Assembly: GCA_017402445.1 (NCBI GenBank)
Contig: JAFPME010000007.1
Span: 39,529-103,528, forward strand
DNA length: 64,000 bases
Direction of reading: 5' to 3'
Source: Prevotella sp.
GTDB taxonomy: Bacteria > Bacteroidota > Bacteroidia > Bacteroidales > Bacteroidaceae
Shown here one piece after another: positions 14,849-61,752 of this stretch. The notes under the pieces were generated by a model, which was not told the origin of the DNA, did not search any database, and saw only the letters and a program-made list of their open reading frames with translations. The position numbers were made by a program, and so were the translations under genes. Position 1 is the stretch's first letter; every line of letters starts with the position of its first letter.

Positions 14849-14936
14849 TCACTGATTTTGCACGGCAATTTCAGTGAGATTGCCGCGCAATGTCAGTGAA
14901 ACTGCTGAGCAATATCAGTGATTTTGCAACGCAACG
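14849..14936. repeat. 22-bp tandem array, family 1 (copy 1)
   Basis: Four units of exactly 22 bp starting at 14849, 14871, 14893 and 14915. Units begin TCAGTGA (the first has TCACTGA, its reverse complement) and contain TTGC-n4-GCAA-like half palindromes. It lies between two converging 3' ends. The same family recurs at 39515 and 51222. Noncoding. Confidence 0.85.
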
Positions 14937-14970
14937 ACGCTGCAGTGGCAGGCCAGAAACAGCCTTCGGG

Positions 14971-15016
14971 CAAAAGAAAAGCTCGCGCCTTCCATGCTGA
15001 GACGGAAGGCGCGAGC
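14971..15016 (-). terminator. Terminator of the lipoprotein gene
   Basis: A perfect 13-bp stem (14981-14993 with 15004-15016), then TTTTCTTTTG on the minus strand. It lies 24 bp past the lipoprotein stop. Confidence 0.88.
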
Positions 15017-15040
15017 CTGTATGTATGGGGAGACTGAGTG

Positions 15041-15580
15041 TCAGTTCTTGCCGATGCTGTCGGTAGCCACGTCGTCGTCTTCGTCGGCCCAGACGTAACC
15101 TTTCTTCACGTAGTAGTTGTAACGATAGTCCCAACCATCGTAGTCGCGTACCAGGTCGAACGATGCCAGCCAGCGGCCGTTGCGCGCATCGTGGAAGTCG
15201 CCGCGGAATTCGTCGCCGAAGAGACGGTAGTTGCTGATGCGAACCTCGGTGCCGTCTTCGTAGAAGAGGTAGATGATGCCGCCACGCACTTCGTAGTCGA
15301 AGTAGACAACCTCGCTGTAGCCGTAGCCGTAGTAGTCGACTTCACGGCCCGTGCCGCGTGCGTAGTCGTAGCGGTCGTGCCAGAATTCGAACATCACGTC
15401 GGTGTAGTCAACGTTGCTTCCATAGCGGTAGGTGAAATATTCGCTGGCCACTTGCCCGTACCAGACGCCGTCCATGGTGAAAGCGATGTCGTCGTCGTCC
15501 TGCTCGCAGGAAGTGAAAACCATCGGGAGTGCTGCAAGGAGCACCATGGTGAGTATTGCAGTAAACTTTTTCATGTTCAT
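15041..15580 (-). CDS. Hypothetical Asp/Tyr-rich lipoprotein
   Basis: Function not recognised. The signal peptide MNMKKFTAILTMVLLAALPMVFTSC ends in lipobox FTSC and is followed by an acidic stretch EQDDDD, an arrangement that in Bacteroidetes often sends lipoproteins to the cell surface (inference). The rest is beta-prone and unusually rich in Tyr and Asp (YYGYGYSEVVYFDYEVRGG), with a predicted small barrel or lipocalin-like shape only as a guess. Start 15580 or 15574 (MKKF) are equally good. Monocistronic, with its own -7 element and terminator. Confidence 0.72.
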   Translation of the reverse strand: MNMKKFTAILTMVLLAALPMVFTSCEQDDDDIAFTMDGVWYGQVASEYFTYRYGSNVDYTDVMFEFWHDRYDYARGTGREVDYYGYGYSEVVYFDYEVRGGIIYLFYEDGTEVRISNYRLFGDEFRGDFHDARNGRWLASFDLVRDYDGWDYRYNYYVKKGYVWADEDDDVATDSIGKN

Positions 15581-15613
15581 TCAGGTTTATAGGTTAATGA
15601 ATCTTTCTTGCTG

Positions 15614-15621
15614 CAAAGGTA
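15614..15621 (-). promoter_or_regulatory. Lipoprotein gene promoter, -7 element
   Basis: TACCTTTG followed by GCA on the minus strand, about 33 nt upstream of the start. Confidence 0.75.
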
Positions 15622-15808
15622 ATGTTTTTCCAGCTTTCCTGCAAATATGAAATCCATAATCTTGCATAGGGATTTCCCTAAATGCATCAGGTTTTCCCCC
15701 CAGTCAGGCGTCTGTGCTTCGGAACGGCCATCTTGCAAAAGTAGAATAATAATTGTTAGTTTTTGAAATATTTTTGCTGAAATAAAAGTGTATTCGGAAA
15801 AATAATGC

Positions 15809-15816
15809 TATATTTG
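15809..15816 (+). promoter_or_regulatory. Glutathione peroxidase/trxB promoter, -7 element
   Basis: TATATTTG followed by CA, 35 nt upstream of the peroxidase start, in an AT-rich region. Confidence 0.75.
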
Positions 15817-15851
15817 CACTGACGAATAGTTTTTACCATACGAAATAAGAA

Positions 15852-16406
15852 ATGAGAACAATTTACGAATTCGCCGTCAAAGACCGCAAAGGCAAGGACG
15901 TGTCGCTGAAAGAGTATGCCAACGAGGTCATCCTCATTGTCAACACCGCAACAAAGTGTGGTTTCACACCTCAGTATGAAGAACTGGAAAAGCTCTATGA
16001 GCAGTATCATAGCCAGGGCTTCACCATCCTCGACTTCCCCTGTAACCAGTTCGGACAGCAGGCTCCCGGCACCGACGAGAGCATCCACGAGTTCTGCAAG
16101 CTGAACTATGGCACAGAGTTCCCGCGCTTCAAGAAGATCAAGGTGAACGGCGATGATGCCGATCCGCTCTACAAGTTCCTCACCGAACAGAAGGGCTTCG
16201 CCGGCTGGGACATGGAGCATCCCATTGCGCCCATTCTCGACGACATGCTCTCGAAGGCCGATCCTGACTACAAGCAGAAGCCCGACATCAAGTGGAACTT
16301 CACGAAGTTCCTCATCAACAAGAAGGGACAGGTGGTCGCTCGCTTCGAACCGACAGAGAAGATTGAGAACATCGCCAAGAAGATAGAAGAATTGCTGGCC
16401 AACTGA
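15852..16406 (+). CDS. Glutathione peroxidase-family thiol peroxidase
   Basis: Reduces hydrogen peroxide and organic hydroperoxides. NTATKCGFTPQ holds the peroxidatic Cys (C36), FPCNQFGQQAPG the Gln (Q66) and KWNFTKFL the Trp-Asn pair (W148, N149) of the catalytic tetrad. A second Cys, C64 in FPCNQFG, and C82 are possible resolving residues. Bacterial enzymes of this family generally use thioredoxin rather than glutathione, and here thioredoxin reductase follows after 25 bp, which supports that. Length 184 is normal; cytoplasmic, no signal peptide. Confidence 0.94.
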   Translation: MRTIYEFAVKDRKGKDVSLKEYANEVILIVNTATKCGFTPQYEELEKLYEQYHSQGFTILDFPCNQFGQQAPGTDESIHEFCKLNYGTEFPRFKKIKVNGDDADPLYKFLTEQKGFAGWDMEHPIAPILDDMLSKADPDYKQKPDIKWNFTKFLINKKGQVVARFEPTEKIENIAKKIEELLAN

Positions 16407-16431
16407 TAGCTGTTTATTTCCGACAAGACAC

Positions 16432-17364
16432 ATGGAACATGTTAAAGTATTGATTATAGGTAGCGGGCCTGCCGGGTACACGGCTGCCATCTATACGTCG
16501 CGCGCCAACCTGAAGCCTGTGCTCTACTGCGGTCTGCAAACGGGCGGTCAGCTGACTCAGACCACTGAGGTGGAGAACTTCCCCGGCTATCCGCAGGGCG
16601 TGGACGGGAACCAGATGATGATGGACTTGCGCGAGCAGGCCGAGCGATTCGGCGCTGACGTACGCGACGGCATCGTCACGAAGGCCGACTTCTCGAAAGC
16701 TCCTTATGTGCTGACGCTCGAGGACGGCACGCAGATAGAGTCCGACACGGTCATCATCGCCACGGGGGCTTCGGCCAAATACCTGGGTCTCGATGACGAA
16801 GAGAAGTATCGCGGACAGGGTGTTTCGGCCTGTGCTACGTGCGACGGATTCTTCTATCGCAAACGGACGGTAGCCGTTGTGGGCGGTGGCGACACGGCCT
16901 GCGAGGACGCGCTCTACCTGTCGAGTCTGGCCAAGAAGGTCTATCTCGTCGTACGCAAGCCGTTCCTGCGCGCCTCGCAGGTGATGCAGGACCGCGTCCG
17001 TGCTGCTGAAAACATTGAAATCCTCTTCGAGCACAATGCCACAGGACTCTACGGCGAGAACGGAGTGGAAGGCATGCACGTGGTGAAGCGCAAGGGTGAG
17101 GCTGACGAGAGCCATTACGATGTAGCTATCGACGGCTTCTTCCTCGCCATCGGGCACAAGCCCAACAGTGATGTGTTCCGCGAGTGGGTCGACACGGACG
17201 AGATTGGCTACATTCGCACTGTCGGCAACACGCAGCAGACGCGTGTACCCGGCGTATTTGCCGCTGGCGACGTCTGCGACCCCGTCTATCGGCAGGCCAT
17301 CGTCGCCGCCGGCAGCGGCTGCAAGGCTGCTCTTGAAGCCGAGCGCTACCTGCAGACGCTGTGA
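16432..17364 (+). CDS. trxB: Thioredoxin-disulfide reductase
   Basis: Flavoprotein that transfers electrons from NADPH to thioredoxin. GSGPAGYTAAIY (10-21) binds FAD, CATC at 134-137 is the redox disulfide, VVGGGDTACEDALYL binds NADPH, and the C-terminal GVFAAGDVCDP is the second FAD motif. Length 310 is typical. It lies 25 bp after the peroxidase gene and is followed by a strong terminator, so the two form an oxidative-stress operon driven from 15809. Confidence 0.97.
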   Translation: MEHVKVLIIGSGPAGYTAAIYTSRANLKPVLYCGLQTGGQLTQTTEVENFPGYPQGVDGNQMMMDLREQAERFGADVRDGIVTKADFSKAPYVLTLEDGTQIESDTVIIATGASAKYLGLDDEEKYRGQGVSACATCDGFFYRKRTVAVVGGGDTACEDALYLSSLAKKVYLVVRKPFLRASQVMQDRVRAAENIEILFEHNATGLYGENGVEGMHVVKRKGEADESHYDVAIDGFFLAIGHKPNSDVFREWVDTDEIGYIRTVGNTQQTRVPGVFAAGDVCDPVYRQAIVAAGSGCKAALEAERYLQTL

Positions 17365-28935: not shown

Positions 28936-29100
28936 TTTTTTCTTGGATGTTGGCCGGTCGCGAGGCTTGTCTTTCCTGCCGTCAACCGAACGTCGGCTGT
29001 CATGGCACTGCGAGTCGGTGTGGCTTTGAAGCCGGAACTGCTGTGAAAGCGTGGTTGAAGTGATGCACGGAATCTGCGGGCGGAACTTGTGAAAAATGCG

Positions 29101-29465
29101 GACAAAAATCGCATTTTGGGCCTTCAGGAAGGCCAACATTCTGAAATAAAAATCTGGTGGACGCGTACGCGCGAATTATGAGAGTGTTTTAAAACGCTGA
29201 AAACAAACGACTTGTGTTTTCTTTACATTTTCTGAGCTTTCAAAATGACTCATTTTGCACTTCAAAACGAGCCGTTTTGTCGGACAGAATGAGTCATTTT
29301 GGCGAGCAGAATGGGCCTTTTTGAAGAGTAAAACGGCTCATTCTGAAAAACAACGAGATTTTTCTTTGCTTTTTGTATGATCTTTTTACCGCTTCAAGTA
29401 CAATCTGCTCTCTAAAATGAAAAAAAATCTATACTGTTTTTTTTGGTACTTTTTGTTGACAAAAC
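29101..29465. repeat. 365-bp intergenic element, copy A (contains family 2 array)
   Basis: Noncoding segment aligning over its whole length with 61391-61752. Shared landmarks in order: GGGCCT...GGCC, CTGAAAT, GGACGCGTACGCGCGAA (core CGCGTACGCG is a perfect palindrome), CTTGTnTTTTCTTTAC, a five-unit array of 22-bp palindromic units, GATTTTTCTT, TTTTGTATGAT, TTTTACC, AATGAAAAAAAATCT and TTTTTTGGTA. It lies between the tRNA terminator and the exchanger promoter. Confidence 0.8.
29241..29350. repeat. 22-bp palindromic array, family 2 (copy A)
   Basis: Five 22-bp units at 29241, 29263, 29285, 29307 and 29329. Each is a near-palindrome of 16-17 bp of the form cAAAAyGnnCnTTTTg plus a 5-6 bp linker, for example CAAAATGACTCATTTTG and CAAAACGAGCCGTTTTG. 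Confidence 0.85.
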
Positions 29466-35420: not shown

Positions 35421-35442
35421 TATAACAGGCAGGACAGAGTTC

Positions 35443-35618
35443 GCATCAGGCATCAGCATCTTCCGCGACAGTCTGCATCGCCACTCGCATCAGGCAGCGG
35501 CATCATCCGCGACAGTCTGCATCGCCACTCGCATCAGGCATCAGCATCTTCCGCGACAGTCAGCATCGCCACTCGCATCAGGCAGCGGCATCATCCGCGA
35601 CAGACAGTGCAGAGCCAG
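35443..35618. repeat. 44-bp tandem repeat (2 x 22 bp), family 5
   Basis: Four copies starting at 35443, 35487, 35531 and 35575 (the last diverges at its end). Each 44-mer splits into two 22-mers, one beginning GCATCAGGCA and one GCGACAGTC, which agree at about half their positions. Copies 1/3 and 2/4 are most alike (CATCAGCATCTT versus CAGCGGCATCAT), a higher-order 88-bp alternation. It lies between the terminator at 35376 and the HD gene. Confidence 0.88.
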
Positions 35619-36344: not shown

Positions 36345-39287
36345 ATGAGAAAGAAAACGGTCATATTCATGCTGTCGTTTGTCTTCGTCTTTATGATGGC
36401 AGACACGAGGCTACCGTTTATGAATGCTGTCTTGGGAGAGCTTGATGCGGCCGATGAGCCCGATACTACGCTGTCAACCAAGGCTGAAAAGACTGTTGCC
36501 GACTCCTTACAGCGATGGATTGCCGACTCAACGCAAAGCCAAGACGTTGACACCACCTTCGCACTTCACCCCGATTCCGATTTCCTTTCACCTTCAAGGA
36601 CGACAGCCACCGGCGAAGACGATGGCCTGGACTCGCTCGGCCTGGACTCGCTGCAGCTTGCCGTCTACAAGCACAACAAGGCCATCGACGACTCCATACG
36701 ACTTGACAGTCTGAACAAAAAGAAGAAAACCGGCATCGATGCTCCCGTCACTTACTCGGCAAACGACTCGCTCGTCTACAAAGCCAACACCAAGACTGCC
36801 TACCTCTACGGCGATTCGAAGGTGGACTACATGTCGATGAACCTGACCAGCGACCGCATCTACATGAGCCTGGACAGCAACCTGGTGCATGCCACAGGGT
36901 CATACGCCGACACGACCATGACCGAAATCAAGGGCAAACCCGTCTTCAAAATGGGCAACGACACCTACGAGAACGACACCATGGCCTTCAACTTCAAGAC
37001 CAAGAAGGGACTTATCAGCAACGCATACACCCAACAAGAGGACGGATTCCTATGGAGCAAGCGCTCGAAGCGCGACAGCAGCGGCGTGATGTACCTGCAA
37101 CACGGAAAGTACACCACGTGCGATGCCGAGCATCCCGACTTCTACATTTCGCTCTCGCGCGCCAAAGTGCGTCCGGGAAAGGACGTTATCTTCGGTCCTG
37201 CCTACCTTGTCGTATGCGATGTGCCCTTGCCCTTGGCCATTCCTTATGGCTTCTTCCCCTTCACAAAGAGCTATAGCAGCGGATTCATCATGCCTACGTA
37301 CGGCGATGAGTCCATACGAGGCTTCTACTTGCGCGATGGCGGCTACTACTTTGCCATCAACGACAAGTGGGATCTGAAGCTATTGGGCGAAATCTACACC
37401 AAAGGGTCGTGGGGCATCAGTGCCGCTTCCAACTACACCAAGCGCTATCGCTATTCGGGTTCGTTCTACATGAACTATCAGAAAACGAAACATGGTGACA
37501 AGGGAATGCCTGACTACGGCGAAGACACATCCTTCAAGCTGCAGTGGTCACACAATCAGGACGCGAAGGCCAACCCGTTCAGTTCGCTCACGGCAAGTGT
37601 GAACTTCACCACTTCAAACTTCGAGACCAACAACCTCACGTCGCTCTACAACCCGCAGGCGCGCTCGCAGAGCCAAAGAAACTCGTCGGTAAATTGGAAA
37701 ACGTCGTTCAGCAGTATAGGACTTTCCCTCAGCGTCAATTCCAACCTGAACCAGAACATGAGGGACACCTCCATCAACCTGTCGCTGCCCGACCTCAACG
37801 TAATGGTCACTCGCTTCTATCCCTTTAAGCGGAAAAACGCCGCCGGAGAGCAGAAATGGTACGAAAAGATTTCATTCAGCTATACCGGTCGACTGCAAAA
37901 CTCCATTGAAACGAAGGAAAGTAAGTTCCTGAAGTCAAACCTCATCAAGGACTGGCGAAACGGTATGCACCACAGCGTGCCCGTGGAAGCGAACTTCATG
38001 GTGATGAAATACATCAACGTGTCACCAAGACTGCAGCTCACTGACCGCATGTACACCAACAAGGTCATCAAATCGTGGGATGTCCAGAAACAACGAGAGC
38101 TCAACGACACGGTCTACGGCTTCTACAACATCTTCGACTGGAACCTCGGACTCTCCGCGAACACCACTGTCTACGGCATGTGGACACCCTCAAGGAAACT
38201 CTTCGGCGACAAGATTCAGGCCATCCGACACGTCATGAAACCTACAATCTCATTCTCATTCGCACCTGACTTCAGCACTGCCCGCTACGGTTACTATGAC
38301 ACTTACCAGAAGACAGATGCGGACGGAAACGTAACGCTGGAGAAATACTACCTCTACTCGAACGGTATCTACGACCAACCCAGAAATGCGAGGACGGGAA
38401 GCATTGGACTCACGCTGAGCAACAACATTGAAATGAAGGTGAAGTCGGACGACGACTCTACCGGATACAAGAAAATAAGCATCATCGATGAGCTCGGATT
38501 GTCCATGTCGTACAATATGGCGGCCAAGGAAAAACCATGGAGCGACCTGCAGACGAACATCCGACTGAAGTGGTGGAAGAACTATACGTTCAACATGAAC
38601 GCCACCTTCGCCACATACGCATACGAGCTCGACGAAAACGGAAGACCCTACATCGGCAACCGGACGGAGTACAGCTACGGCCGATTCGGCCGCTTCACCG
38701 GCACGTCGCAGAACATTTCAATCAACCTGGACCCTGAGAAGCTGAAGAAACTGTTCGGGAAAAAGAGCGACGAAGAAGAAAAGAGCAGCGAAAAAAACGA
38801 CGATTACGACACCGGACTGGAGACGAACATCGACGACGACATGGAAAAAGCCAAGCGGGGAGCACGTAAGGAGAGTGCAGGAAAGGCCGAAACGGATGCT
38901 GACGGCTACCTGAAATTCTCCATGCCGTGGAGCCTCAGCATCGGATACACCATCTCTATGCGTGAGAACACGTCGGGTAAGTTCAACACCAAGCGCATGC
39001 GCTACCCCTACTCCTTCTCGCAGACGCTCAACGTGAGCGGTAACGTTCGCTTGAGCGACGGATGGAACATCAATTTCTCAAGCGGCTATGACTTCGATAC
39101 GAAGAAAATCAGCATGACCCGAGCCTCACTCCAGCGCGACCTACACTGTTTCAGCATGTCGTGCGACGTGGTCATCGCTCCCTACACGTCGTACAACTTC
39201 TCTTTCCGATGCAATGCCTCTACGCTGACGGACGCACTGAAGTACGACAAACGTTCCGGCTACGGAAATGCCGTGCAGTGGTATTGA
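36345..39287 (+). CDS. lptD: LPS assembly protein LptD, Bacteroidetes type
   Basis: Outer-membrane protein that inserts lipopolysaccharide or lipooligosaccharide into the outer leaflet. The 980-residue protein begins with a membrane-targeting segment (KKTVIFMLSFVFVFMM). An OstA/LptA-like beta-jellyroll (about 130-260) follows: YSANDSLVYKANTKTAYLYGDSKVDYMSMNL. A long beta-barrel domain rich in alternating aromatic strands then extends to the C-terminus (ending YGNAVQWY, terminal aromatic). A low-complexity charged insert (KKSDEEEKSSEKNDDYD, near 810) is probably a surface loop. Function is by homology with LptD; monocistronic here. Confidence 0.88.
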   Translation: MRKKTVIFMLSFVFVFMMADTRLPFMNAVLGELDAADEPDTTLSTKAEKTVADSLQRWIADSTQSQDVDTTFALHPDSDFLSPSRTTATGEDDGLDSLGLDSLQLAVYKHNKAIDDSIRLDSLNKKKKTGIDAPVTYSANDSLVYKANTKTAYLYGDSKVDYMSMNLTSDRIYMSLDSNLVHATGSYADTTMTEIKGKPVFKMGNDTYENDTMAFNFKTKKGLISNAYTQQEDGFLWSKRSKRDSSGVMYLQHGKYTTCDAEHPDFYISLSRAKVRPGKDVIFGPAYLVVCDVPLPLAIPYGFFPFTKSYSSGFIMPTYGDESIRGFYLRDGGYYFAINDKWDLKLLGEIYTKGSWGISAASNYTKRYRYSGSFYMNYQKTKHGDKGMPDYGEDTSFKLQWSHNQDAKANPFSSLTASVNFTTSNFETNNLTSLYNPQARSQSQRNSSVNWKTSFSSIGLSLSVNSNLNQNMRDTSINLSLPDLNVMVTRFYPFKRKNAAGEQKWYEKISFSYTGRLQNSIETKESKFLKSNLIKDWRNGMHHSVPVEANFMVMKYINVSPRLQLTDRMYTNKVIKSWDVQKQRELNDTVYGFYNIFDWNLGLSANTTVYGMWTPSRKLFGDKIQAIRHVMKPTISFSFAPDFSTARYGYYDTYQKTDADGNVTLEKYYLYSNGIYDQPRNARTGSIGLTLSNNIEMKVKSDDDSTGYKKISIIDELGLSMSYNMAAKEKPWSDLQTNIRLKWWKNYTFNMNATFATYAYELDENGRPYIGNRTEYSYGRFGRFTGTSQNISINLDPEKLKKLFGKKSDEEEKSSEKNDDYDTGLETNIDDDMEKAKRGARKESAGKAETDADGYLKFSMPWSLSIGYTISMRENTSGKFNTKRMRYPYSFSQTLNVSGNVRLSDGWNINFSSGYDFDTKKISMTRASLQRDLHCFSMSCDVVIAPYTSYNFSFRCNASTLTDALKYDKRSGYGNAVQWY

Positions 39288-39345: not shown

Positions 39346-39455
39346 TTCACTCTTCTCAGTCGCATGCCTCACTCTTCTTAGTGTCATGCTTCACGCTGCT
39401 TAGTTTCATGTCTCATTCTTATCTGTCGCATGCTTCACGCTTGTCTGAAGCCTGC
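39346..39455. repeat. 22-bp tandem array, family 4
   Basis: Five 22-bp units at 39346, 39368, 39390, 39412 and 39434. The pattern is [TC]TCA[CT]nCTnnTnnGTnnCATG[CT]. It begins 58 bp after lptD. Confidence 0.85.
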
Positions 39456-39514: not shown

Positions 39515-39602
39515 TCAGTGATTTTGGTCAGCAATTTCAGTGATATTGGTGTGCAATTTCAGTGATTTTGCTCACCAATATCACTGATTTTCCAATTCTG
39601 AA
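39515..39602. repeat. 22-bp tandem array, family 1 (copy 2)
   Basis: Units at 39515, 39537, 39559 and 39581. The first three begin TCAGTGAT, the last TCACTGAT. Inner half palindromes such as TTGG-n4-GCAA. Confidence 0.85.
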
Positions 39603-39932: not shown

Positions 39933-42900
39933 ATGAAAAAAGAAAGGTTTCTATCTGTGTTGTTGGCACTGTTGGTGTCGATAACAGTCGCTGCCCAGTC
40001 GTCAGGACTGAAAGGAACAGTGACAGATGAGAGCGGGGAGCCCGTCATCGGTGCTTCCGTCATCGTGAAGGGGCAACCTCAAACCGGCACGATCACGAAC
40101 TTCGACGGTGAGTTCGTGGTGAATGTCGCAGAGGGAACGACCCTTGTTGTTTCGTATGTAGGCTACAGTTCGCAAGAGGTTCGTGCGCGCAACGGCATGA
40201 ATGTGGTCTTGAAAGAAGACGCGAGCGTGCTGAACGACGTGGTAGTCATCGGTTACGGCGTGCAGAAGAAGAGCGTCGTGACGGCCTCGATTGCTAAGGT
40301 GAGTGCCGACGACCTCGACGGCAAGACGCGTCTGCGCGCTGAGGATGCCCTGAAAGGTATGGCAGCCGGTGTGAACGTTACCTCGTCGTCGGGACAGCCC
40401 GGCGCGAAGTCGATGATCCGCATTCGCGGTATCGGTACCATCAACGACTCCAACCCCCTGTATATTATCGACGGCATGCCCACCGACCAGGACGGTATGG
40501 AGAGTGTGAACCCCGGCGACATAGAGTCGATAGAGGTGCTCAAGGACGCTGCCTCGGGCGCCATCTACGGAGCTCGTGCCGCCAACGGTGTCATTCTGGT
40601 GACAACGAAGAAGGGTAAGCTGGGCCAAGCGTCGATAAACTACAACTTCTCCTACGGCTGGCAGTCGGCATGGAAGAAGCGCGACGTGACCGGAGCCACT
40701 GACTATGCCATCCTGCAGAACGAACGCCGTGTGCAGAACGGCATGGTGCCCCTCTACAACGACCCCTACAATCTGGTGGATGCCAACGGCGACAAGATCA
40801 CCGGCTTCGGCACCAACTGGCAGGACCTGCTCTTCAACGACAACGCGCCCATTGTGCAGCACGACGTGAGCGTGAGCGGTGCCTCGGAGAAGGTGAACTA
40901 CTACCTCTCGTTGGGTTACTTCACGCAGGACGGTATCGTGGGCGGTAACTACGGCCAGTCGAACTACGACCGTCTGACCATCCGCTCGAACAACCAGTTC
41001 AACCTCTTCGACGCTTCGAAGGATCGCAATTTCCTGAACAAGCTCGACCTCGGTGCCAACCTCTCTTACATGCGTGTGCACAGCACCGGCATCGATGCCA
41101 ACTCAACATGGGGCTCGCCCCTGGGCTCGGCCCTCTACCTGGCTCCCACATTGCCCGTTACGCTGAACGCCGGCTACGACAGAGACGGCAAACCGCTCAT
41201 CGGCCAGCGCATGATCGACCAGTATTCGCAGTACGACCTCTTCACCGACGGGAACGGCAACCCCTATACCATTCCCAACTACATCGGATCGTATCAGGAG
41301 CAGAACAACCCCATCGCCATGATGATGCTCAACCCCACGAAGGGATGGAGCCATAAGTTCATGCCGAAGTTCTCGCTCGACCTGCAACTCTTCGACGAGC
41401 TGCGCTACCACTTCACCTACAGTGCCGAGCTCTCCTTCTGGGGCAACGAAGGCGCCACGCTGCAGAAATACTACCTCTCGGGCAACAACAACGCCGACCA
41501 CACGCAGGCTTCGGCCTACAAGGGTCAGAACACCACGTGGCAGATAGAGAACACGCTGACCTACGACAAGACGTTCGGCAAGCACACAGTCGGCGTGGTG
41601 CTCGGTCAGTCGGCCCTGAAGTTCAAGGGCGACGAGCTGGGCGGCTCGCACTGGTACCTGGTGAACACCGACAAACCGTCGATCAACTACACCACGGGCG
41701 GCGACATCGAGTTCTCCTACGATGCCGACGGCAAGATAACGGGTGCGAAGAGCCTCGTGGGCGTCTATGGCGGACCCTACGTGGAGCACCGTCTGTCGTC
41801 GCTCTTCGCCCGTCTGTCGTACAACTACGACGAGCGCTACATGCTGCAGGCCACCATCCGCCGCGACGGTTCGAGCCGCTTCGGTTCCAATAACAAGTAT
41901 GGTACATTCCCCTCGGCTTCCATCGGATGGAACATCATGAACGAGGATTTCATGAAGTCCACCCACGACTGGCTCTCCAATCTGAAGTTCCGTGCCAGCT
42001 GGGGTAAGAACGGTAACGACAACATCGGCGACTTTGCCTACACCACGCTGACCGCTCTGGGCAACACCAGCAACTATTACTTCGGACAATCGGCAGCCAT
42101 GGTCTACGGCTCGAAGGCGAACCGTCTGGCCAACGAGGACCTGAAGTGGGAGGAGAGCGAGCAGACAGACCTCGGTCTGGACTTCGGCTTCTTCAACAAC
42201 GCGCTGACCTTCTCGGTGGACTACTACATCAAGAAGACCAACGGCATGATTATCGAGATGCCCATCCCGTCGTATGTCGGTGAGGCACGTCCGTTGGCCA
42301 ACGTCGGCGACATGGAGAACAGCGGTTGGGAGTTCGAGCTGGGTTACAAATGGAACATCGCTGACGCTCGTTTCGCCGTCAGGGGCAATGCTTCCTACCT
42401 GAAGAACAAGCTGAAGAACCTCGGTAACGACACCGGTTTCCTGAATTACGGCATCTCGCAGTTCTCCGACGGCGGCACACGCGCCGAGAACGGCCAGCCT
42501 TTCCCCTTCTTCTATGGCTACAAGACCGACGGCATCCTGCAAAATCAGGCAGAGGCCGACGCCTACAACAGCAAGTACGGCACCTCGTCGAAGCCCGGCG
42601 ACTTCCGCTTCGTTGACATGAACGGCGACAATACGATTAATTCTGACGACCGTACGAACATCGGTAACGGCGTGCCCGACTGGACCTTCGGCCTGAACTT
42701 CGACGCCGAGTGGAATGGTTTCGACTTCAGTGTCTTCTTCCAGGGAGTGAGCGGAGCCGACGTCTTCGACGCTACTTACCGTCAGGACGTTGCTTCGGGT
42801 AACTATCCCACATGGGTGCTCGACCGCTGGACGGGCGAGGGCACCTCGAACACCGTGCCCACGCTGGGCGACTCGAAGAACTGGGTGGTGAGCGATATGT

Positions 42901-43148
42901 ACGTGCGCGACGGCAGCTACCTGCGCCTGAAGAACATCACGCTGGGCTACACACTGCCCCGCACGCTGACAAACAAGATCGGCATCAGCCGCCTGCGCTT
43001 CTTCGGACGTGCTGAGAACCTCTTCACATGGGCCAAATACTGGGGCTTCGACCCTGAAATCGGTTCCGGCTCGACCAGCCTCGGCGTCGACTACGGCGTC
43101 TATCCGCAGGCTCGTACCTACACCATCGGATTCAACATCTCTTTATAA
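39933..43148 (+). CDS. susC: SusC-like TonB-dependent transporter
   Basis: Outer-membrane TonB-dependent importer of oligosaccharides, partner of the SusD protein next to it. Signal peptide (MKKERFLSVLLALLVSITVAAQ), a carboxypeptidase-regulatory-like domain (about 24-100: LKGTVTDESGEPVIGASVIV), then the SusC motif DVVVIGYGVQKKSVVTASI, plug domain (RIRGIGTINDSNPLYIIDGMP; AASGAIYGARAANGVILVTTKKG) and a 22-strand barrel ending TYTIGFNISL with a terminal hydrophobic residue. Length 1071 is usual. First gene of a five-gene locus that fits beta-glucan use. Confidence 0.95.
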   Translation: MKKERFLSVLLALLVSITVAAQSSGLKGTVTDESGEPVIGASVIVKGQPQTGTITNFDGEFVVNVAEGTTLVVSYVGYSSQEVRARNGMNVVLKEDASVLNDVVVIGYGVQKKSVVTASIAKVSADDLDGKTRLRAEDALKGMAAGVNVTSSSGQPGAKSMIRIRGIGTINDSNPLYIIDGMPTDQDGMESVNPGDIESIEVLKDAASGAIYGARAANGVILVTTKKGKLGQASINYNFSYGWQSAWKKRDVTGATDYAILQNERRVQNGMVPLYNDPYNLVDANGDKITGFGTNWQDLLFNDNAPIVQHDVSVSGASEKVNYYLSLGYFTQDGIVGGNYGQSNYDRLTIRSNNQFNLFDASKDRNFLNKLDLGANLSYMRVHSTGIDANSTWGSPLGSALYLAPTLPVTLNAGYDRDGKPLIGQRMIDQYSQYDLFTDGNGNPYTIPNYIGSYQEQNNPIAMMMLNPTKGWSHKFMPKFSLDLQLFDELRYHFTYSAELSFWGNEGATLQKYYLSGNNNADHTQASAYKGQNTTWQIENTLTYDKTFGKHTVGVVLGQSALKFKGDELGGSHWYLVNTDKPSINYTTGGDIEFSYDADGKITGAKSLVGVYGGPYVEHRLSSLFARLSYNYDERYMLQATIRRDGSSRFGSNNKYGTFPSASIGWNIMNEDFMKSTHDWLSNLKFRASWGKNGNDNIGDFAYTTLTALGNTSNYYFGQSAAMVYGSKANRLANEDLKWEESEQTDLGLDFGFFNNALTFSVDYYIKKTNGMIIEMPIPSYVGEARPLANVGDMENSGWEFELGYKWNIADARFAVRGNASYLKNKLKNLGNDTGFLNYGISQFSDGGTRAENGQPFPFFYGYKTDGILQNQAEADAYNSKYGTSSKPGDFRFVDMNGDNTINSDDRTNIGNGVPDWTFGLNFDAEWNGFDFSVFFQGVSGADVFDATYRQDVASGNYPTWVLDRWTGEGTSNTVPTLGDSKNWVVSDMYVRDGSYLRLKNITLGYTLPRTLTNKIGISRLRFFGRAENLFTWAKYWGFDPEIGSGSTSLGVDYGVYPQARTYTIGFNISL

Positions 43149-44843: not shown

Positions 44844-47270
44844 ATGAAGAATATGAATAAAATATATAGTTTATTCTGCGCAGGTTTGGTAAGCTGTGGT
44901 ATTGCTGCAGCCTTCTCTTCCTGCAGCCCCGACGAGTTTGAGGGAGCCAAAGAGTCTGGCATCCCCACAGTCAGCGGCAAGGACTTCCAGATTGCCGTCG
45001 ATCAGGAGACCAACCAGATGGTGGCTTCCTTCGCCGCACCCGCAGGCACCTACCCTGTATGGATCATTGATGGTACCAGTTACTCCACTCTCAGCGAGGT
45101 CGGCTACAAGAATACCGAGGCCGGCACGCATACTGTAGGCCTGAAGCTTGGCAACCGGAACGGATTCAGCCAGGGAACCATCACGAAAGAATTCACTTTC
45201 AACGAGACAAAGATTGACTATTCGTCCGACTTCCGCAAGATTACGGGCAAAGAATGGCGCTTCGCCAACAAGGAAGTGGCCCATCTGGCTTGCGGACCAG
45301 CAGGAACGGCCGGAACGGAGTGGTGGTCTGCCAGTGCTGATGAGAAGAAAGACTTCGGTATGTACGACGATCGCATCTCCTTCACCGCCGAAACTCGCAA
45401 GGGAGGAACGTTTACTTACAATGCCGGTGAAGACGGACTGACCTACGTGAACAAAGGAACCACCAAGTGGGGAAGCCAGGATCCCGACTGGGATGCAACC
45501 ATTGGCAACCAGACTTCTACTTGGAGCTTCGAGGTATACGAATGGACAGACGCCGAAGGCAACGTTGTTCCGCAGACTTACATACAGTTGGCACCGAACA
45601 CAGCTTTCCCGTATATCAGCAGCGATGCGCAATACGAGAACCCACGTTTCCGCATCGAGACGCTGACAGCGAAGAAGCTCGTGCTCATCTACGAGGCTCC
45701 CGACCGCTCGATAGCATGGCGATTCATCTTCACAAGCGAGGAAGCCGAGAAGGAATGGGCTGGATTCGACCCGAACAGCGACTTTAATCTCTGGAAGAAT
45801 GTGGATTATACGATGTTCTTCTACTATGCACCGGGCTGGGCACAGATTGCAGATCCTGGCTTCGAAGTTGGCGACAATGACTATACCATTACGCTTCCCC
45901 AGGGAACAACCGACCAATGGCAGGCACAGGTTGCCTTCAAGACGACGAACATCTCTACTTCTGCGTCAAAGAACTACGACTTCTCGTGCATCATCAACAG
46001 TGACAAGGACCTCAACGGCGCCACGGTGAAGCTTGTCATGGACGGCGACGACAACACCTTCTACTTTGCTGACCGCATCGATCTGAAGGCTGGTGAGGAT
46101 TATATCTTCTGGAAGAGCGACATGCCCGGCATTGATATGGAGCGCGTCAACCTCTTCTTCGACTTCGGTGGCTGTCAGCCTGACACGCACATCAACATCT
46201 CCGGCATCGTGCTGAAAGACCATGCCAACAACGACGGTACTGTGCCTCCCGGCGGCGACCAGCCTGGCGGCGACACTCCCGGCGGCACAATGGACTGGGA
46301 CTACAACTCGGCCAGCAATCTGTGGAAGGCTGTCGACGACGGCACGCTGTTCAATGCTTTCGGCTATTACTTTGCCGATAACGGATGGGGGCCCATCGCC
46401 TACAACGAGGCAACACACAACGGCGACACTTATGAGCTGACACTTCCCGAGGGACTCGGCGGAAGCCAGTGGCAGGGACAATTCCACATCGACACGAAGC
46501 TGACCGCCTCGGCTGCGAAGACCTATAACTTCTACCTCGTGATGGAGACCGACCAGGATTGTCCGCAGGTGACCTTCAAGCTCACCGATGCCGGTGACAC
46601 CAACTTCTTCTTAGAGGAACGCAACGACGTGAAGGCCGACGAGCCGTTCATTCTTAAGCGTACAGGTCTCACCCTGAAGGAGGGCAAGGACGCTGAGGCC
46701 ATCCGTCTGTTCTTCGACTTCGGTGGCTCACCCGCCGGAACGCATGTCAAGATCAGCAAGATCTACTTCGAGGAAGTGGTCTCGATGAACTACGACGATG
46801 CCGACAACCTGTGGAAAGCTGTCGACGACGGATCGCTGTTTGACGCCTTCGGCTACTACTTCGCCGACAACGGATGGGGTTCCATCGCCTACAACGAGGC
46901 AACACACAGCGGCGACACCTACGAACTGACACTCCCCGAGGGACTCGGCGGAAGCCAGTGGCAGGGACAGTTCCACATCGACACGAAGCTGACCGCCTCG
47001 GCTGCAAAGAGCTATAACTTCCAGCTGGTGCTCGAGGCCGACAACGACTGCCCTGGCGTGACCATCAAGCTGACCGACTCGGGCGATACGAACTTCTTAT
47101 GTGAAGGTCGCCACGACATCACAGCTGACGAGCCTTACGTCTATACGCTGAAGGGTGCCACACTGAAGGAAGGCAAGGACGCTACGGCCATCCGCCTGTT
47201 CTTCGACTTCGGCGGCTCACCAGTGGGAACGAAGGTGAAGATCAGTAAGATCGTGTTCAAGGAGAACTGA
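44844..47270 (+). CDS. Surface glycan-binding protein with three repeated modules
   Basis: Probable SGBP-B of the locus. Lipoprotein signal MKNMNKIYSLFCAGLVSCGIAAAFSSC with lipobox FSSC. Residues about 40-110 look like an Ig/PKD-type domain and 110-300 like a further beta domain. From about 312 to the end, three modules of 150-160 residues each start with NLWK (near 312, 489 and 652), contain a GxxYxxTLPxG-type strand, and end in LFFDFGG then a KISxI strand. They resemble CBM4/9/22-type beta-sandwiches. A Gly/Pro linker (PPGGDQPGGDTPGG) separates module 1 from 2 and 3; modules 2 and 3 are nearly identical even in DNA. No catalytic motif; binding is inferred from position between susD and GH16. 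Confidence 0.8.
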   Translation: MKNMNKIYSLFCAGLVSCGIAAAFSSCSPDEFEGAKESGIPTVSGKDFQIAVDQETNQMVASFAAPAGTYPVWIIDGTSYSTLSEVGYKNTEAGTHTVGLKLGNRNGFSQGTITKEFTFNETKIDYSSDFRKITGKEWRFANKEVAHLACGPAGTAGTEWWSASADEKKDFGMYDDRISFTAETRKGGTFTYNAGEDGLTYVNKGTTKWGSQDPDWDATIGNQTSTWSFEVYEWTDAEGNVVPQTYIQLAPNTAFPYISSDAQYENPRFRIETLTAKKLVLIYEAPDRSIAWRFIFTSEEAEKEWAGFDPNSDFNLWKNVDYTMFFYYAPGWAQIADPGFEVGDNDYTITLPQGTTDQWQAQVAFKTTNISTSASKNYDFSCIINSDKDLNGATVKLVMDGDDNTFYFADRIDLKAGEDYIFWKSDMPGIDMERVNLFFDFGGCQPDTHINISGIVLKDHANNDGTVPPGGDQPGGDTPGGTMDWDYNSASNLWKAVDDGTLFNAFGYYFADNGWGPIAYNEATHNGDTYELTLPEGLGGSQWQGQFHIDTKLTASAAKTYNFYLVMETDQDCPQVTFKLTDAGDTNFFLEERNDVKADEPFILKRTGLTLKEGKDAEAIRLFFDFGGSPAGTHVKISKIYFEEVVSMNYDDADNLWKAVDDGSLFDAFGYYFADNGWGSIAYNEATHSGDTYELTLPEGLGGSQWQGQFHIDTKLTASAAKSYNFQLVLEADNDCPGVTIKLTDSGDTNFLCEGRHDITADEPYVYTLKGATLKEGKDATAIRLFFDFGGSPVGTKVKISKIVFKEN

Positions 47271-51221: not shown

Positions 51222-51309
51222 TCAGTGAGATTGCCGGGCAATTTCAGTGAAATTGGTGAGCAAAATCAGTGAAATTGGTGAGCAATTTCACTGAAATGAC
51301 AGTCTTTGC
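51222..51309. repeat. 22-bp tandem array, family 1 (copy 3)
   Basis: Units at 51222, 51244, 51266 and 51288; three begin TCAGTGA, the last TCACTGA. Inner pattern ATTG-n5-CAAT. It runs into the family 3 array. Confidence 0.85.
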
Positions 51310-51426
51310 AAGTGCATCTGACAAAGAAGAACAGATCTTCTGACAAGAGAGAGCTACTTTTCTGACAAGTGAGAACGACTGATCTGAAAAAGAAGAACAG
51401 CTGATCTGAAAAAGGAGAGCGGCCGA
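51295..51426. repeat. 22-bp tandem array, family 3
   Basis: Six 22-bp units, registers 51295, 51317, 51339, 51361, 51383 and 51405. Units start TCTGACAA or TCTGAAAA followed by AGA-rich sequence. The first is more diverged and overlaps the last family 1 unit. Confidence 0.83.
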
Positions 51427-58475: not shown

Positions 58476-58483
58476 TCAAGCTG

Positions 58484-58565: not shown

Positions 58566-60128
58566 CTATTCGCAAGCTGAAACACTCAGGCCCATCGCCC
58601 GTGCTTGCTCCATCAGAAGCTCCATCAGCGGCTCGCGGGCGTTCTCCACTTTATTGTCGAGGACGGCATCTTTCAGTGCTTTCTTCAGCTCTCCCACTTC
58701 GCGCGACGGCTTCAGATGGAAGAGCTCCATGATTTCGTTTCCGTCGATGACAGGCTGCAGCAGACGCTTGTAGTCCTTCTCCTTCAGGTCGGTCAGTTTC
58801 TCACGCACCATTCGGAAGTTTTCCCGGAAGTGCTTTTTGCGGACCTCGTTCTTGCTTGTAATGTCGGCTTCGCAGAGCGTCATCAGGTCGTCGATGTCTT
58901 CGCCGACATCGTTTAACAACCGTCGGACGGCACTGTCCGTCACTTCCTCGTCGGCAATCACGATGGGACGCATGTGCAGATCGACCAGTTTCTGGACGTA
59001 TTTCATCTTCGCATCCAGTGGCAACTTGAGCCGACGGAAGATTACGGGCACCATCTTGGCCCCGATGTAGTTGTGGTTATGGAACGTCCACCCCACCAAA
59101 GGTTCCCACCGTTTGGTCTTCGTCTTCCCGATGTCATGCAGCAATGCCGCCCAGCGGAGCCAGAGATTCGGCTCTGCAGCAGTGTTCTTGCAGGAACAGC
59201 CTGTGCTTTCGGCGGCATCGTCGGCACGCTCCGTGTGGTCAGAATCATGATTGACTGCCGTCGTCCGATCCACCTTACAGACATTCTCGAGCACTTCGAG
59301 CGTATGGTAGAAGTTGTTCTTGTGACTGCGGCCGTTGCGCGTCTCCACGATGTCGAGCGCGGTCAGCTCCGGCAGAATCAGGTGCAGCAGTCCACTCTCG
59401 TGCAATTCAAGCAGTCCGATGCTTGGATGCTGCGCCAACATGATTTTATTCAACTCGTCGGCAATGCGCTCCCCGCTGATGATTTCCAGCCGGTGAGCAT
59501 TGCGTCGGAGCGCATCCTTCGTCTCCGGTTCTATGTCGAAGCGGAGCTGTGTGGCAAAACGCACGCAGCGCAACATGCGCAACGGGTCGTCGCTGAAAGT
59601 GATGTCGGGATCCAAAGGCGTGCGGATGATGCCGTCTTCCATGTCGTAGATGCCGTCGAAAGGGTCCACCAGTTCGCCGAAGCGCGCCGCATTCAGGCAG
59701 ATGGCGCAGGCATTGATGGTGAAGTCGCGTCGGTTCTGGTCGTCTTCCAGCGTTCCGTCCTCGACGATGGGCTTTCGCGAGTCGTGGCTGTAGCTTTCTT
59801 TGCGCGCGCCGACGAACTCAATCTCCAAAACGCCTGAGCCCGCAGCCGCCACCTCGCCTTTGATTTTCACCTGTGCAGTGCCGAAATTCTTGAACACACT
59901 CAGGTGAGCTCGCTTGCCAAGCCGCTTCTTGAGCTCCTCGGCAACGCGGATACCACTGCCCACGACGACGACGTCAATGTCGTTCGAAGGTCTCTCCAAA
60001 AAGATGTCGCGCACGAAACCGCCCACCACGTAGCACTCCACGCCCAACGTGTCGGCCACGTTGCCTATTTGGTGAAAGATGTCTTTGTCGAGAATCTGGG
60101 CCAGTTCGGCGTCTGAATAAAGCTTCAT
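58566..60128 (-). CDS. cca: CCA tRNA nucleotidyltransferase / HD protein
   Basis: Class II nucleotidyltransferase that adds or repairs the 3' CCA of tRNA (or adds poly(A)), with a C-terminal HD domain. YVVGGFVRDIFL (35-45) with G36-D41 and NDIDVVV (D50, D52) form the active site; NRRDFTINA and DPLRMLRCVRFA are the next motifs. The HD domain shows LLHDIGKTK. A roughly 30-residue polar insert (AVNHDSDHTERADDAAESTG, then CSCKNTAAE) lies between the core and the HD motif and looks unrelated to the family. 520 residues. CCA is not encoded in the tRNA of this window, consistent with a need for the enzyme. Confidence 0.93.
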   Translation of the reverse strand: MKLYSDAELAQILDKDIFHQIGNVADTLGVECYVVGGFVRDIFLERPSNDIDVVVVGSGIRVAEELKKRLGKRAHLSVFKNFGTAQVKIKGEVAAAGSGVLEIEFVGARKESYSHDSRKPIVEDGTLEDDQNRRDFTINACAICLNAARFGELVDPFDGIYDMEDGIIRTPLDPDITFSDDPLRMLRCVRFATQLRFDIEPETKDALRRNAHRLEIISGERIADELNKIMLAQHPSIGLLELHESGLLHLILPELTALDIVETRNGRSHKNNFYHTLEVLENVCKVDRTTAVNHDSDHTERADDAAESTGCSCKNTAAEPNLWLRWAALLHDIGKTKTKRWEPLVGWTFHNHNYIGAKMVPVIFRRLKLPLDAKMKYVQKLVDLHMRPIVIADEEVTDSAVRRLLNDVGEDIDDLMTLCEADITSKNEVRKKHFRENFRMVREKLTDLKEKDYKRLLQPVIDGNEIMELFHLKPSREVGELKKALKDAVLDNKVENAREPLMELLMEQARAMGLSVSACE

Positions 60129-60147
60129 TATATGTTATTTTTGGGTG

Positions 60148-60155
60148 CAAAATTA
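60148..60155 (-). promoter_or_regulatory. cca promoter, -7 element
   Basis: TAATTTTG followed by CACC on the minus strand, 19 nt upstream of the start. Confidence 0.75.
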
Positions 60156-60316
60156 CGAAAAAAAACTTGTTTTCAAGCAAAAACATGGCCAAAACTGCCC
60201 CTTGCGCCGGCCTTTCTGCCTTCGCGCCACGGCTCACCCCGAGACGACTGTCAGCGGGGAAGCCCGGCCTGCTCTGTTTTTACAGACGAGCTACCAAAAG
60301 AAAAACACGCTTTCGT

Positions 60317-60347
60317 TTTGCGTTTTGCACACTTATCCGTACCTTTG
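60317..60347 (+). promoter_or_regulatory. Promoter of small lipoprotein-tadA operon
   Basis: -33 TTTG (60317-60320) and -7 TACCTTTG (60340-60347) with a 19-bp gap. The sequence GCACACTTAT lies between, as in the exchanger promoter at 29533. Confidence 0.82.
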
Positions 60348-60370
60348 CAAGCAGAAAGGAACATGTCGAC

Positions 60371-60748
60371 ATGAAGAAAACAGCACTCATCATCTTGGCT
60401 GTGGTGCTCGTCACAGCCTGTCAAAACAAGCACCAGCAGCTGCAGAAAGAAATAGAGCTACGCAGGACGGCCCTGAAACACCATCAGGATTCGGCCCTGG
60501 CCGCCTCGCAGAAAGACGTGGAACGGCTCGACCGTGAGCTGCAGCAGGCCAGTGCCGAGTACCAACGGCTGAAGAAAGCGGCCGATGCAGCCCACGCAAA
60601 CGGCACAGGCACGGCGGAGCAGTTCAAGGAAGTGACGTTCATGCGGCTGAAACGCGACTCACTGCAAGCTCAGTTCGATGCCACCTGCTCGAAAATCAAG
60701 TACATCCGCAAGCGGATGGAGGAAGACAAAGAAGAGAAACAGCCATGA
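60371..60748 (+). CDS. Small coiled-coil lipoprotein
   Basis: Function not recognised. 125 residues: signal peptide MKKTALIILAVVLVTAC with lipobox VTAC, then an almost entirely helical, charged, Gln-rich sequence (QNKHQQLQKEIELRRTALKHHQ; VERLDRELQQASAEYQRLKK) predicted to form a coiled coil. The start lies 24 nt after the -7 box. Its stop overlaps the tadA start by 4 bp (ATGA), so the two are translationally coupled although a functional link is not obvious. Confidence 0.75.
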   Translation: MKKTALIILAVVLVTACQNKHQQLQKEIELRRTALKHHQDSALAASQKDVERLDRELQQASAEYQRLKKAADAAHANGTGTAEQFKEVTFMRLKRDSLQAQFDATCSKIKYIRKRMEEDKEEKQP

Positions 60749-61230
60749 CGAAACCTGAAGCAAACGGACAGAGGGCCGTCGTCTCGGAAGAACAGCAGAA
60801 GAAGGACGAGTTCTACATGCAGCGCGCACTCGACGAGGCGCGCATGGCACTGGCCGAAGGCGAAGTGCCCATCGGGGCCGTCGTGGTGTGCCGGAACCGG
60901 GTGATAGCCCGGACGCACAATCTCACAGAGACGCTCACCGACGTAACGGCGCACGCCGAGATGCAGGCCATCACCGCTGCAGCGGGTGCTTTGGGCGGCA
61001 AATACCTCACCGACTGCACGCTCTACGTCACCGTGGAGCCCTGCACGATGTGCGCCGGCGCCATCGGTTGGGCACAGATACGCCGCATCGTCTTCGGCTG
61101 CAGCGACGACAAGCGCGGCTACACGCGCGTTGCCCCGCACGCCATGCATCCGAAAGCCGTGGTCATCGGGGGCGTGCTCGAGGACGAATGCCGCAGTCTG
61201 ATGCAGGACTTCTTCCGTTCGCGCCGCTGA
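60745..61230 (+). CDS. tadA: tRNA-specific adenosine deaminase
   Basis: Zinc deaminase converting A34 to inosine in the tRNA-Arg(ACG) anticodon. The zinc-site residues are HAEMQAI (H70, catalytic E72) and PCTMCAGAI (C100, C103). NxxxxxxDVTAHAE spacing and the final FRSRR are typical. 161 residues. The first 20 residues (MTKPEANGQRAVVSEEQQKK) precede the usual family start; the 4-bp overlap with the lipoprotein gene supports this long start. A general nucleoside deaminase is the alternative. Confidence 0.9.
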   Translation: MTKPEANGQRAVVSEEQQKKDEFYMQRALDEARMALAEGEVPIGAVVVCRNRVIARTHNLTETLTDVTAHAEMQAITAAAGALGGKYLTDCTLYVTVEPCTMCAGAIGWAQIRRIVFGCSDDKRGYTRVAPHAMHPKAVVIGGVLEDECRSLMQDFFRSRR

Positions 61231-61390
61231 CCTGAACGAAGAACGGCCTCGGAGAGCGCCGCTTCCTATCGTCCACAGGGACACAACGCTTGCCACCGAG
61301 CGCTCTCCGTCTTCGCATTCCGATTCGCAAGCCACCAACGGTACGTCCGTTCCTACCCTATGTCCAACACAAGGAACATGCTGAATTATA

Positions 61391-61752
61391 TTGACAAAAA
61401 CTTCAATTTGGGCCTCTGTGAAGGCCATCGTTCTGAAATTAAAATCCGACGGACGCGTACGCGCGAAATTTGAGAGAGTTATAACCACCTGAAAAGAAAG
61501 CACTTGTATTTTCTTTACAAAAAACAAGCTCGCAAAATGGCCCGTTTTACTCTTCAAAAAGGCCCTTTTCGGCGCGCAGAATGACTCATTTTGACGAGCA
61601 GAATGAGCCGCTTTGCGATGCAAAATGGCCCATTTTGAAAACCGGGAAGATTTTTCTTCGCATTTTGTATGATTCTTTTACCAACACAACGGCTTTCGTC
61701 TTCGTAGAATGAAAAAAAATCTGTGCACGATTTTTTGGTATAAAATGTTTAC
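61391..61752. repeat. 365-bp intergenic element, copy B (contains family 2 array)
   Basis: Aligns with 29101-29465 end to end, at roughly three quarters identity by eye. The palindrome-containing GGACGCGTACGCGCGAA is identical in both copies, and the 5' part, array, and T-rich 3' part keep the same order and spacing. Confidence 0.8.
61533..61642. repeat. 22-bp palindromic array, family 2 (copy B)
   Basis: Five 22-bp units at 61533, 61555, 61577, 61599 and 61621, such as CAAAATGGCCCATTTTG and CAAAAAGGCCCTTTT. Unit order differs from copy A, but unit length and number are equal. Confidence 0.85.

Follow-up and report, generated by a model that had tools for sequence, protein, structure and literature searches.

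The window, a 64,000-nucleotide stretch of a Prevotella sp. genome, contains eight tandem arrays with a 22-bp step, none of which is assigned a strand. All eight arrays of the original prediction were recovered at their coordinates, with lag-22 identities of 0.52–0.73 that were matched in none of 300 dinucleotide shuffles of each array, even when each shuffle was allowed its best lag in the scanned range (8 to at most 59). TRF gave a period of 22 for seven of them and of 44/88 for the remaining one (35441–35603). The arrays belong to five families: A (14849, 39515 and 51222), B (29241 and 61533) and three private arrays (35443, 39346 and 51295). What had been missed is the palindromic nature of the units and the fact that five of the eight arrays represent just two families, both dispersed. 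The A array at 14849..14936 (period 22 in TRF; lag-22 identity 0.70, 0/300 shuffles) consists of four TCASTGA-type dyads at 22-bp steps, with three exact cores and the left end TGCCATTTCACTGA. The other two A arrays, at 39515..39602 and 51222..51309, were identified by TRF, shuffles and similarity to other A places; the former is located downstream of an LptD-like gene (36345–39287) and upstream of a TonB-dependent receptor gene (39933–43148). The five-unit array at 29241..29350, in which a 17-bp palindrome (CAAAATGRNYCATTTTG-like) alternates with a 5-bp spacer, lies within a family B dispersed element of approximately 370 bp with unique flanks (29082..29463), recognized by homology to other B copies. 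A second B element at 61373..61754, of which 61373–61740 matches 29082–29448, encloses the five-unit 22-bp array at 61533..61642, identified by shuffles and the B alignment. The claim that all arrays lie outside genes needs one qualification: 83% of the 61533 array falls inside an ORF according to a crude ORF caller, and this ORF is taken as spurious because the array and its flanks constitute a dispersed repeat.

The private array at 35441..35603 has 44-bp units (2 × 22; TRF 44 × 3.7 and 88 × 1.9 at 98%), with an identity of 0.85 at lag 44 and 0.52 at lag 22 and near-identical units at 88 bp; no second copy was detected in the sample of its own genome. The private 22-bp arrays at 39346..39455 and 51317..51425, both found by TRF, lie 53 bp from an A array and immediately adjoining one, respectively. 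Dyad symmetry is not significant in the first (equalled by 7 of 60 permutations) and not present in the second (15 of 60). The latter had been listed as 51295–51426 and as separate from 51222–51309, but these two intervals overlap by 15 bases. In contrast to the asserted lack of insertions, TRF allows 9% and 4% indels in two arrays, at 51316 and 61576. A CRISPR array was rejected, the units being contiguous and diverged as opposed to identical repeats with unique spacers. An Rfam search of the whole window at the gathering threshold returned one tRNA only and no match at the arrays.

The period is not confined to the window. A sample of the same genome (428,212 bases, 45,261 of these outside called ORFs) contains 26 intergenic segments at lag 22, 14 at lag 44 and 5 at lag 66. 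Other periods are not equally common, the non-multiples of 22 giving 0–4 segments (4 at lag 21, 3 each at lags 14 and 28, and 0–2 at the remaining lags of 8–69). Shuffling the intergenic blocks 20 times never produced a lag-22 segment, and chance or composition was rejected as the cause on the strength of these and the per-array shuffles. The autocorrelation peak expected by the original prediction was observed: lags 22, 44 and 66 are the top three among lags 14–139 in the own genome, and 22, 66 and 44 are the top lags in seven further genomes of the genus. Coding DNA displays no lag-22 excess by autocorrelation; protein coding, already considered unlikely, was thus rejected as the cause of the period. 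Lag 22 ranks first in pooled other Prevotella and fourth, after 21, 42 and 63, in pooled other genera. Of the 17 other genera that were sampled, five show lag 22, with units unrelated in sequence, and outside the bacterial family a single lag-22 segment was found across 263 kb. In the own genome and several relatives, the 22-base step is nearly constant though the repeat sequences differ. Because one period is common to unrelated families, genome-wide and again in related species, a shared cause is needed, as had been argued from the window.

Homology between copies of family A is confined to the array itself. When the 428-kb sample is divided into 300-base bins, 15 of these contain A-like places; four units are present in 11 of 12 A arrays (TCASTGA dyads), and adjacent-core distances of up to 70 bases are 22 in 26 cases, 44 in two and 65 in two. 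Family B occupies at least 40 places in its own genome, which is half-complete, and full-length B was not found in the other searched genomes of the genus; its adjacent-core distances, within the same limit, are 22 in 28 cases and 44 in six. In the 32 B copies from which a consensus was built, five units and a gapless alignment over 105 bases were observed without exception. The right flank is likewise indel-free, and the absence of indels is therefore no special trait of the array. The ends of B are defined but imperfect as inverted repeats, with no clear target duplication by eye, and no autonomous parent was found at contig ends beside B copies in three loci. The dispersed families are species-specific: G028 has its own at 40 or more places, with an adjacent-core distance of 22 in 29/29, G016 at 39 or more and G120 at 17. 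Arrays also occur in G065 and G157, and G005 has 27 matches to family A. The loci picked by the family-A pattern (54 stretches, including 10 Pseudomonas and 4 other non-Prevotella records, and with one match in Xylanibacter ruminicola) are biased by that choice, the A core occurring in 27/27 of their lag-22 arrays.

Dyad symmetry was assessed in arrays of at least 66 bases against a control that keeps the period and permutes columns. It was found in 34 of 45 arrays (20 of 27 in the own genome, these 20 being nearly all copies of A or B, and 14 of 18 in other genomes) and not in the other 11. Since one dyad per 22 bp is accompanied by a second half-way, symmetry centres recur every 11 bp. Substitution in B was 12.8% in cores, 28.9% in spacers, and 20.8 and 27.9% in the flanks, with transitions favoured in cores (2.3 vs 0.6–0.95); this conservation partly reflects ancestry, the copies of one family being related. 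At the centre of B unit 3 all four bases occur (A 11, C 9, T 8, G 4); a free central base of this kind resembles a dimer site.

Among 50 arrays with genes called on both sides, 14 lie between convergent, 23 between co-directional and 13 between divergent genes, these orientations accounting for 16, 54 and 31% of intergenic bases, respectively. The location described as mostly at 3' ends is thus not general, and a general terminator or promoter role was rejected because the arrays occur in all gene orientations. At orthologous loci of sister species, three shared arrays are of equal length in both species, and a seven-unit 22-bp array in one is absent from the other. Minisatellite or VNTR behaviour was rejected, given the constant unit number in A, in B and at the three sister-species loci, and most arrays are not minisatellites. 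Copies in G120 and G028 vary in unit number by eye.

The reading that we prefer, at a probability of roughly 45%, places these arrays among small palindromic elements of mobile-like character, intermediate between REP and MITE, whose lattice would be read as double-stranded DNA by a dimeric protein; this protein would set the spacing. Most arrays would be, or would sit within, such elements, which are short, dispersed between genes and of a mobile type (REP- or MITE-like) and differ by species. Each element may be regarded as a lattice of DNA palindromes whose symmetry centres, 11 bp or about one turn apart, would place a dimeric DNA-binding protein on successive dyads along one face of the duplex. 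Candidates for this protein would include a mobilising transposase or recombinase and a host or element DNA-binding protein. Its geometry would keep the step at 22 bp as the sequence that it recognizes drifts, which would produce unrelated families with one period. The copies would be spread between genes because they are tolerated there, not because each regulates its neighbour. A protein on one DNA face had been among the original suggestions and is the best fit to the 11-bp dyads and to the conservation of cores over spacers, but no binding protein for the arrays was found. Twenty-two base pairs amount to 2.1 turns of relaxed DNA, and a 21-bp step would be the closer match, except in underwound DNA.

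It is possible, though rather unlikely, that the arrays are instead REP/BIME sequences moved by a transposase that acts on single strands (TnpA-REP, Y1 family), the 22-nt unit being a single-stranded hairpin and the enzyme setting the spacing. As described in the accessible parts of the reports, REP/BIME sequences with TnpA-REP (RAYT) are likewise many short intergenic palindromes in species-specific families (PMC3733652, PMC6006769), and the arrays are similarly high-copy. TnpA-REP subclass 2.6, mostly from Bacteroidetes, is there described as flanked by atypical secondary structures, without GTAG, that have copies elsewhere in the genome (PMC6006769). In G016, each of the three Y1-transposase copies has arrays beside it, and two of them have arrays on either side, an observation that also speaks for the preferred reading. 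However, the G016 Y1 motif is subclass-1.2-like by eye and not 2.6, Y1_Tnp was detected in 6 of 14 genomes, and the array-bearing G005, G065 and G157 have no Y1 match. Unlike REP/RAYT as presented in those parts, A and B have a strict 22-bp lattice and a fixed unit number, no cognate Y1 gene was seen beside them, and by eye neither the A unit profile nor the B consensus has a GTAG/GTGG foot. No pairing covariation beyond column expectation was detected in B (0.790 observed, 0.802 expected). A RAYT gene as general partner was rejected: the Y1 genes of G028 and G120 have no arrays beside them, and none was seen beside that of the own genome, for which only about 270 bases of flank were covered on one side. 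The G028 Y1 gene is flanked by GTAG-type repeats, which are a separate system.

Sequence-blind copying or duplication in 22-bp steps, by slippage set by an enzyme footprint, would leave arrays without a reader and is improbable as the general cause. The private arrays argue for it: six of the seven in the own genome long enough for testing (at a loose cut) are not dyad-symmetric yet share the period, and eight of ten, distributed over five sites, have an A array no more than 155 bp away. The seven-unit array in only one sister species points the same way. The near-fixed unit numbers of A and B, the conserved B cores and the equal lengths of the three sister-species arrays argue against it, as does a common register of neighbouring private and A arrays that is clear at just one of seven junctions. 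The 22-nt copying enzyme of the original prediction thus fares poorly for the dispersed families and may still apply to the private arrays, most of which are non-symmetric and fall outside the dyad-lattice reading.

Transcription of the arrays into RNA that folds as hairpins in tandem, which would act as terminators or shield 3' ends, is a still more doubtful cause. The dyads, a modest convergent excess (14/50 arrays vs 16% of bases) and one G127 array between two terminator-like hairpins are consistent with such a role. However, pairing covariation was absent from B, which counts against an RNA hairpin, G-U is not favoured over A-C in B (G-T 122, A-C 105), and covariation is not clear in G120 either. 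In G120, one of four dyads tested does pair slightly above expectation (0.603 vs 0.537). Arrays between divergent genes (13/50) and the Rfam result also weigh against it, and the RNA scaffold that had been suggested is disfavoured. Folding of the whole B array as one long hairpin was rejected, midpoint pairing (0.669) being below expectation (0.689). Host-selected, non-mobile sites that seat a nucleoid protein would accommodate the core conservation, DNA-level dyads, 11-bp phase and identical positions in sister species, but are very unlikely given the turnover of families between species and a distribution so patchy that 80 kb of G063 contains no intergenic lag-22 segment.

No named repeat class was found to fit the arrays exactly in limited searches, in agreement with the original prediction, and nothing on a 22-bp rule was found in the open-licence PMC literature. 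Apart from REP/TnpA-REP, the nearest relative is BrickBuilt, a MITE of Porphyromonas gingivalis with 23-nt tandem units; 41-, 23- and 22-nt tandem repeats had been noted earlier in strain W83 (PMC4596501). According to the portions of that report available, BrickBuilt is likewise intergenic, dispersed, from the order Bacteroidales and composed of spacerless tandem units close in length to those here, and, as in B only, its array lies within a larger element with conserved flanks (leader and tail). However, its unit is 23 nt versus 22 in all dispersed families examined here, with 1 to 22.8 units per copy versus four (A, 11/12) or five (B). The same portions give indels of up to 6% in arrays, one sequence family and IS5-type terminal repeats; they describe no dyad lattice. 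The approximately 11-bp periodicity of bacterial genomes, of which 22 is twice the period, is commonly attributed to the helical pitch that DNA has under negative supercoiling (PMC4132750, PMC516772), a link that is disputed (PMC7537859). As characterized in the accessible text of these papers, it is a weak genome-wide dinucleotide bias, whereas the present arrays are discrete and of whole units.

A broader and tentative proposal, possible rather than probable, is that Prevotella and some other Bacteroidaceae have in common one undescribed DNA-binding or DNA-processing machine, whose step is fixed at 11/22 bp while its specificity changes fast and which builds, maintains or propagates unrelated intergenic dyad lattices. 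The private non-palindromic arrays next to A would be by-products, and its signature would be the period and not the sequence. If one machine does set the 22-bp step, these repeats would be recognizable by geometry rather than by sequence, which would account for homology searches missing most of the elements and would offer a route to the protein. They would also represent a natural DNA lattice with conserved spacing and freely changing sequence. Even if a transposase of known type is the cause, a large unannotated repeat class would be added to an abundant genus of the gut and rumen.

The genome that holds the window (1.87 Mb in 44 contigs, 51% complete) was sampled as the 64-kb window and 19 further stretches, 428,212 bases in total, and searched at every lag from 8 to 69 for ungapped self-matching segments; the window was also run through TRF and its arrays were inspected directly. 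Because gene calling simply took the longest ORF, "intergenic" is approximate. Intergenic segments numbered 26 at lag 22, 14 at lag 44 and 5 at lag 66, with 4 at lag 21, 3 each at lags 14 and 28, and 0–2 elsewhere; called ORFs contain three additional lag-22 segments. The original prediction, drawn from eight intergenic arrays of unrelated sequence, was a genome-wide 22-bp autocorrelation peak absent from shuffled controls, and both parts were borne out: lags 22, 44 and 66 led (excess 0.0375, 0.0306 and 0.0249), and 20 shuffles of the intergenic blocks yielded no segment at lag 22. Each of the eight window arrays also beat all of its 300 shuffles. The 22-bp rule is real, and a composition effect is excluded. 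With detected arrays masked, lag 22 (0.0093) came second to lag 21 (0.0154) in this genome and still first in other genomes of the genus (0.0136). The excess at lags 21, 42 and 63 is present in coding DNA too, and probably reflects uncalled coding sequence. Elsewhere in the window, a 489-bp tandem duplication (46316–47252; 82% matches, 1.9 copies) lies within an 808-aa ORF (44844–47270).

Across 619 kb from seven further genomes of the genus there were 14 intergenic lag-22 segments, spread over five of the seven (zero in 39 kb of G010 and 80 kb of G063), with 4, 3 and 2 segments at lags 21, 23 and 24. Seventeen further genera of the family, sampled over 713 kb, gave 7 segments at lag 22, in five genera, and 2 each at lags 21 and 23; lag 22 ranked fourth in their pooled autocorrelation. 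Eleven genomes of other families (263 kb) gave one segment at lag 22 and two at lag 23. The lptD locus provided a sample picked independently of the arrays (30 loci from 100 genomes with a match). A lag-22 array lies within 1.5 kb at five of the nine loci in the genus, the window's genome counted; the units are unrelated, one sister pair excepted, and 44 is the sole other intergenic lag present between 10 and 59. At the 21 loci from other genera, lags near 22 were represented once each at 22, 21 and 24, and an 18-bp or other period was found at two. In a different family of the same order, one 23-bp unit is arrayed twice (L256, 8231–8298 and 9647–9751), matching the period of BrickBuilt, a MITE of Porphyromonas gingivalis.

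Two dispersed families, A and B, make up most arrays of the window's genome. Family A has TCASTGA at 22-bp steps with TTGCnnnGCAA midway between; 11 of 12 arrays contain four cores and one contains three, and over 47 units T, C, A, T, G and A are conserved at 98% each around a central G or C. Its copies share little homology outside the array. Six of 60 genomes searched matched at all, G005 being rich (27 matches), and the A pattern was found in 40 stretches of Prevotella-type records, three genomes supplying 28. By eye, two species with diverged genes carry an A-type array upstream of the same gene. Ten Pseudomonas stretches (L274, L276, L292, L294, L295, L300–L302, L315 and L319) match the two-unit pattern, and in six of these both strands match at a single place.

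Family B comprises five repeats of a 17-bp palindrome plus a 5-bp spacer within a ~370-bp element in unique surroundings, at no fewer than 40 places. Among 150 genomes searched, with four candidates scored per genome, no genome of the genus but its own carries B at length: five matched, its own at full length and four at 41–63 bases. A B copy lies within ~430 bases of the start of several contigs (C17, C27, C29 and C33), so the assembly may be broken by these elements. The 464-aa protein encoded at 62125–63519, a short way right of the second B element in the window, has a phage-integrase SAM-like domain (PF13102). Other species have dispersed families of their own (at least 40 places in G028, at least 39 in G016 and 17 in G120); by eye, the G028 family and A have a common frame with the core swapped, and G120 elements bear extra units at 22-bp spacing, mirrored on both outer sides.

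Dyad symmetry was scored for the 45 of 52 arrays that were long enough, against 60 column permutations retaining the period, with at most 3 of 60 controls reaching the observed symmetry. Of the 34 that were dyad-symmetric, 20 belong to the window's genome, almost all of them to family A or B, and the other 14 come from the 18 arrays tested in other genomes. The 11 failing arrays include both G024 arrays and most private arrays of the window's genome, those at a single place in the sample. Substitution in B is 12.8% in cores, 28.9% in spacers, 20.8% in the left flank and 27.9% in the right, with a transition/transversion ratio of 2.34 in cores versus 0.63–0.95 elsewhere; across 32 copies, the 105-base array and the right flank are free of indels, and the left flank has nine indel events. 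Pairing within B units, across spacers and about the midpoint was never clearly above column expectation, and G-T and A-C mismatches are equally common (122 and 105); thus, there is no selection on either strand of B to form an RNA hairpin. In G120 (14 distinct copies; 77 G-T and 104 A-C mismatches), pairing was below expectation at three of four dyads and above at one. The dyads are thus conserved one column at a time, the pattern that a dimer site in DNA would give, though shared ancestry contributes.

In the sister species G101 and G127 (~95% identical across most of 100 kb), three common arrays are equal in length, and one seven-unit array is present in G127 and absent in G101. The region corresponding to a G101 array at 11544 is replaced in G127. 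Lag-22 arrays per stretch number 6 in G101 and 8 in G127, at a lower threshold than in the 428-kb scan. The seven-unit array of G127 (L248, 13689–13946) has a terminator-like hairpin on one side and an inverted near-copy of that hairpin on the other; the G101 counterpart is a single unrelated hairpin.

In a search for a partner of the arrays, the Y1-transposase domain (Y1_Tnp) was found in six of 14 genomes. In G016, arrays lie near all three Y1 copies, on both sides for two, within mosaic elements that hold other palindromes; as homologous copies, these contexts amount to about one event. The mosaics (L241, L242 and L235) combine several palindromes with a Y1 gene that resembles subclass 1.2, and their outer ends carry 22-bp arrays; gene-less versions, with copies ~740 bp apart, also occur. 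No arrays were found in the flanking sequence examined for Y1 genes of the array-bearing window genome, G028 and G120. GTAG-type palindromes (GTAGGGGCG...CGCCC) stand on both sides of the G028 gene (L237, 1100–1400 and 1880–2367); this looks like a canonical REP system, distinct from that genome's 22-bp arrays. One published account places TnpA-REP subclass 2.6 mostly in Bacteroidetes and describes the structures that flank it as atypical (PMC6006769).

The best reading of the dispersed arrays is as small palindromic elements of a mobile-like type, with a DNA lattice for a putative dimeric protein. Half the step, 11 bp, is near the pitch that is commonly attributed to supercoiled DNA in bacteria (PMC4132750), a tie disputed in another account (PMC7537859). 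About ten arrays are single-copy within the 428 kb, and eight of them, spread over five sites, have an A array no more than 155 bp away (raw count). Private non-palindromic arrays suit palindromic elements less well, and a process that copies in 22-bp steps therefore stays in play as an account of the arrays. For the dispersed arrays, the preferred reading is that a dimeric protein would read the dyad lattice in the DNA and that the palindromic elements would move between places.
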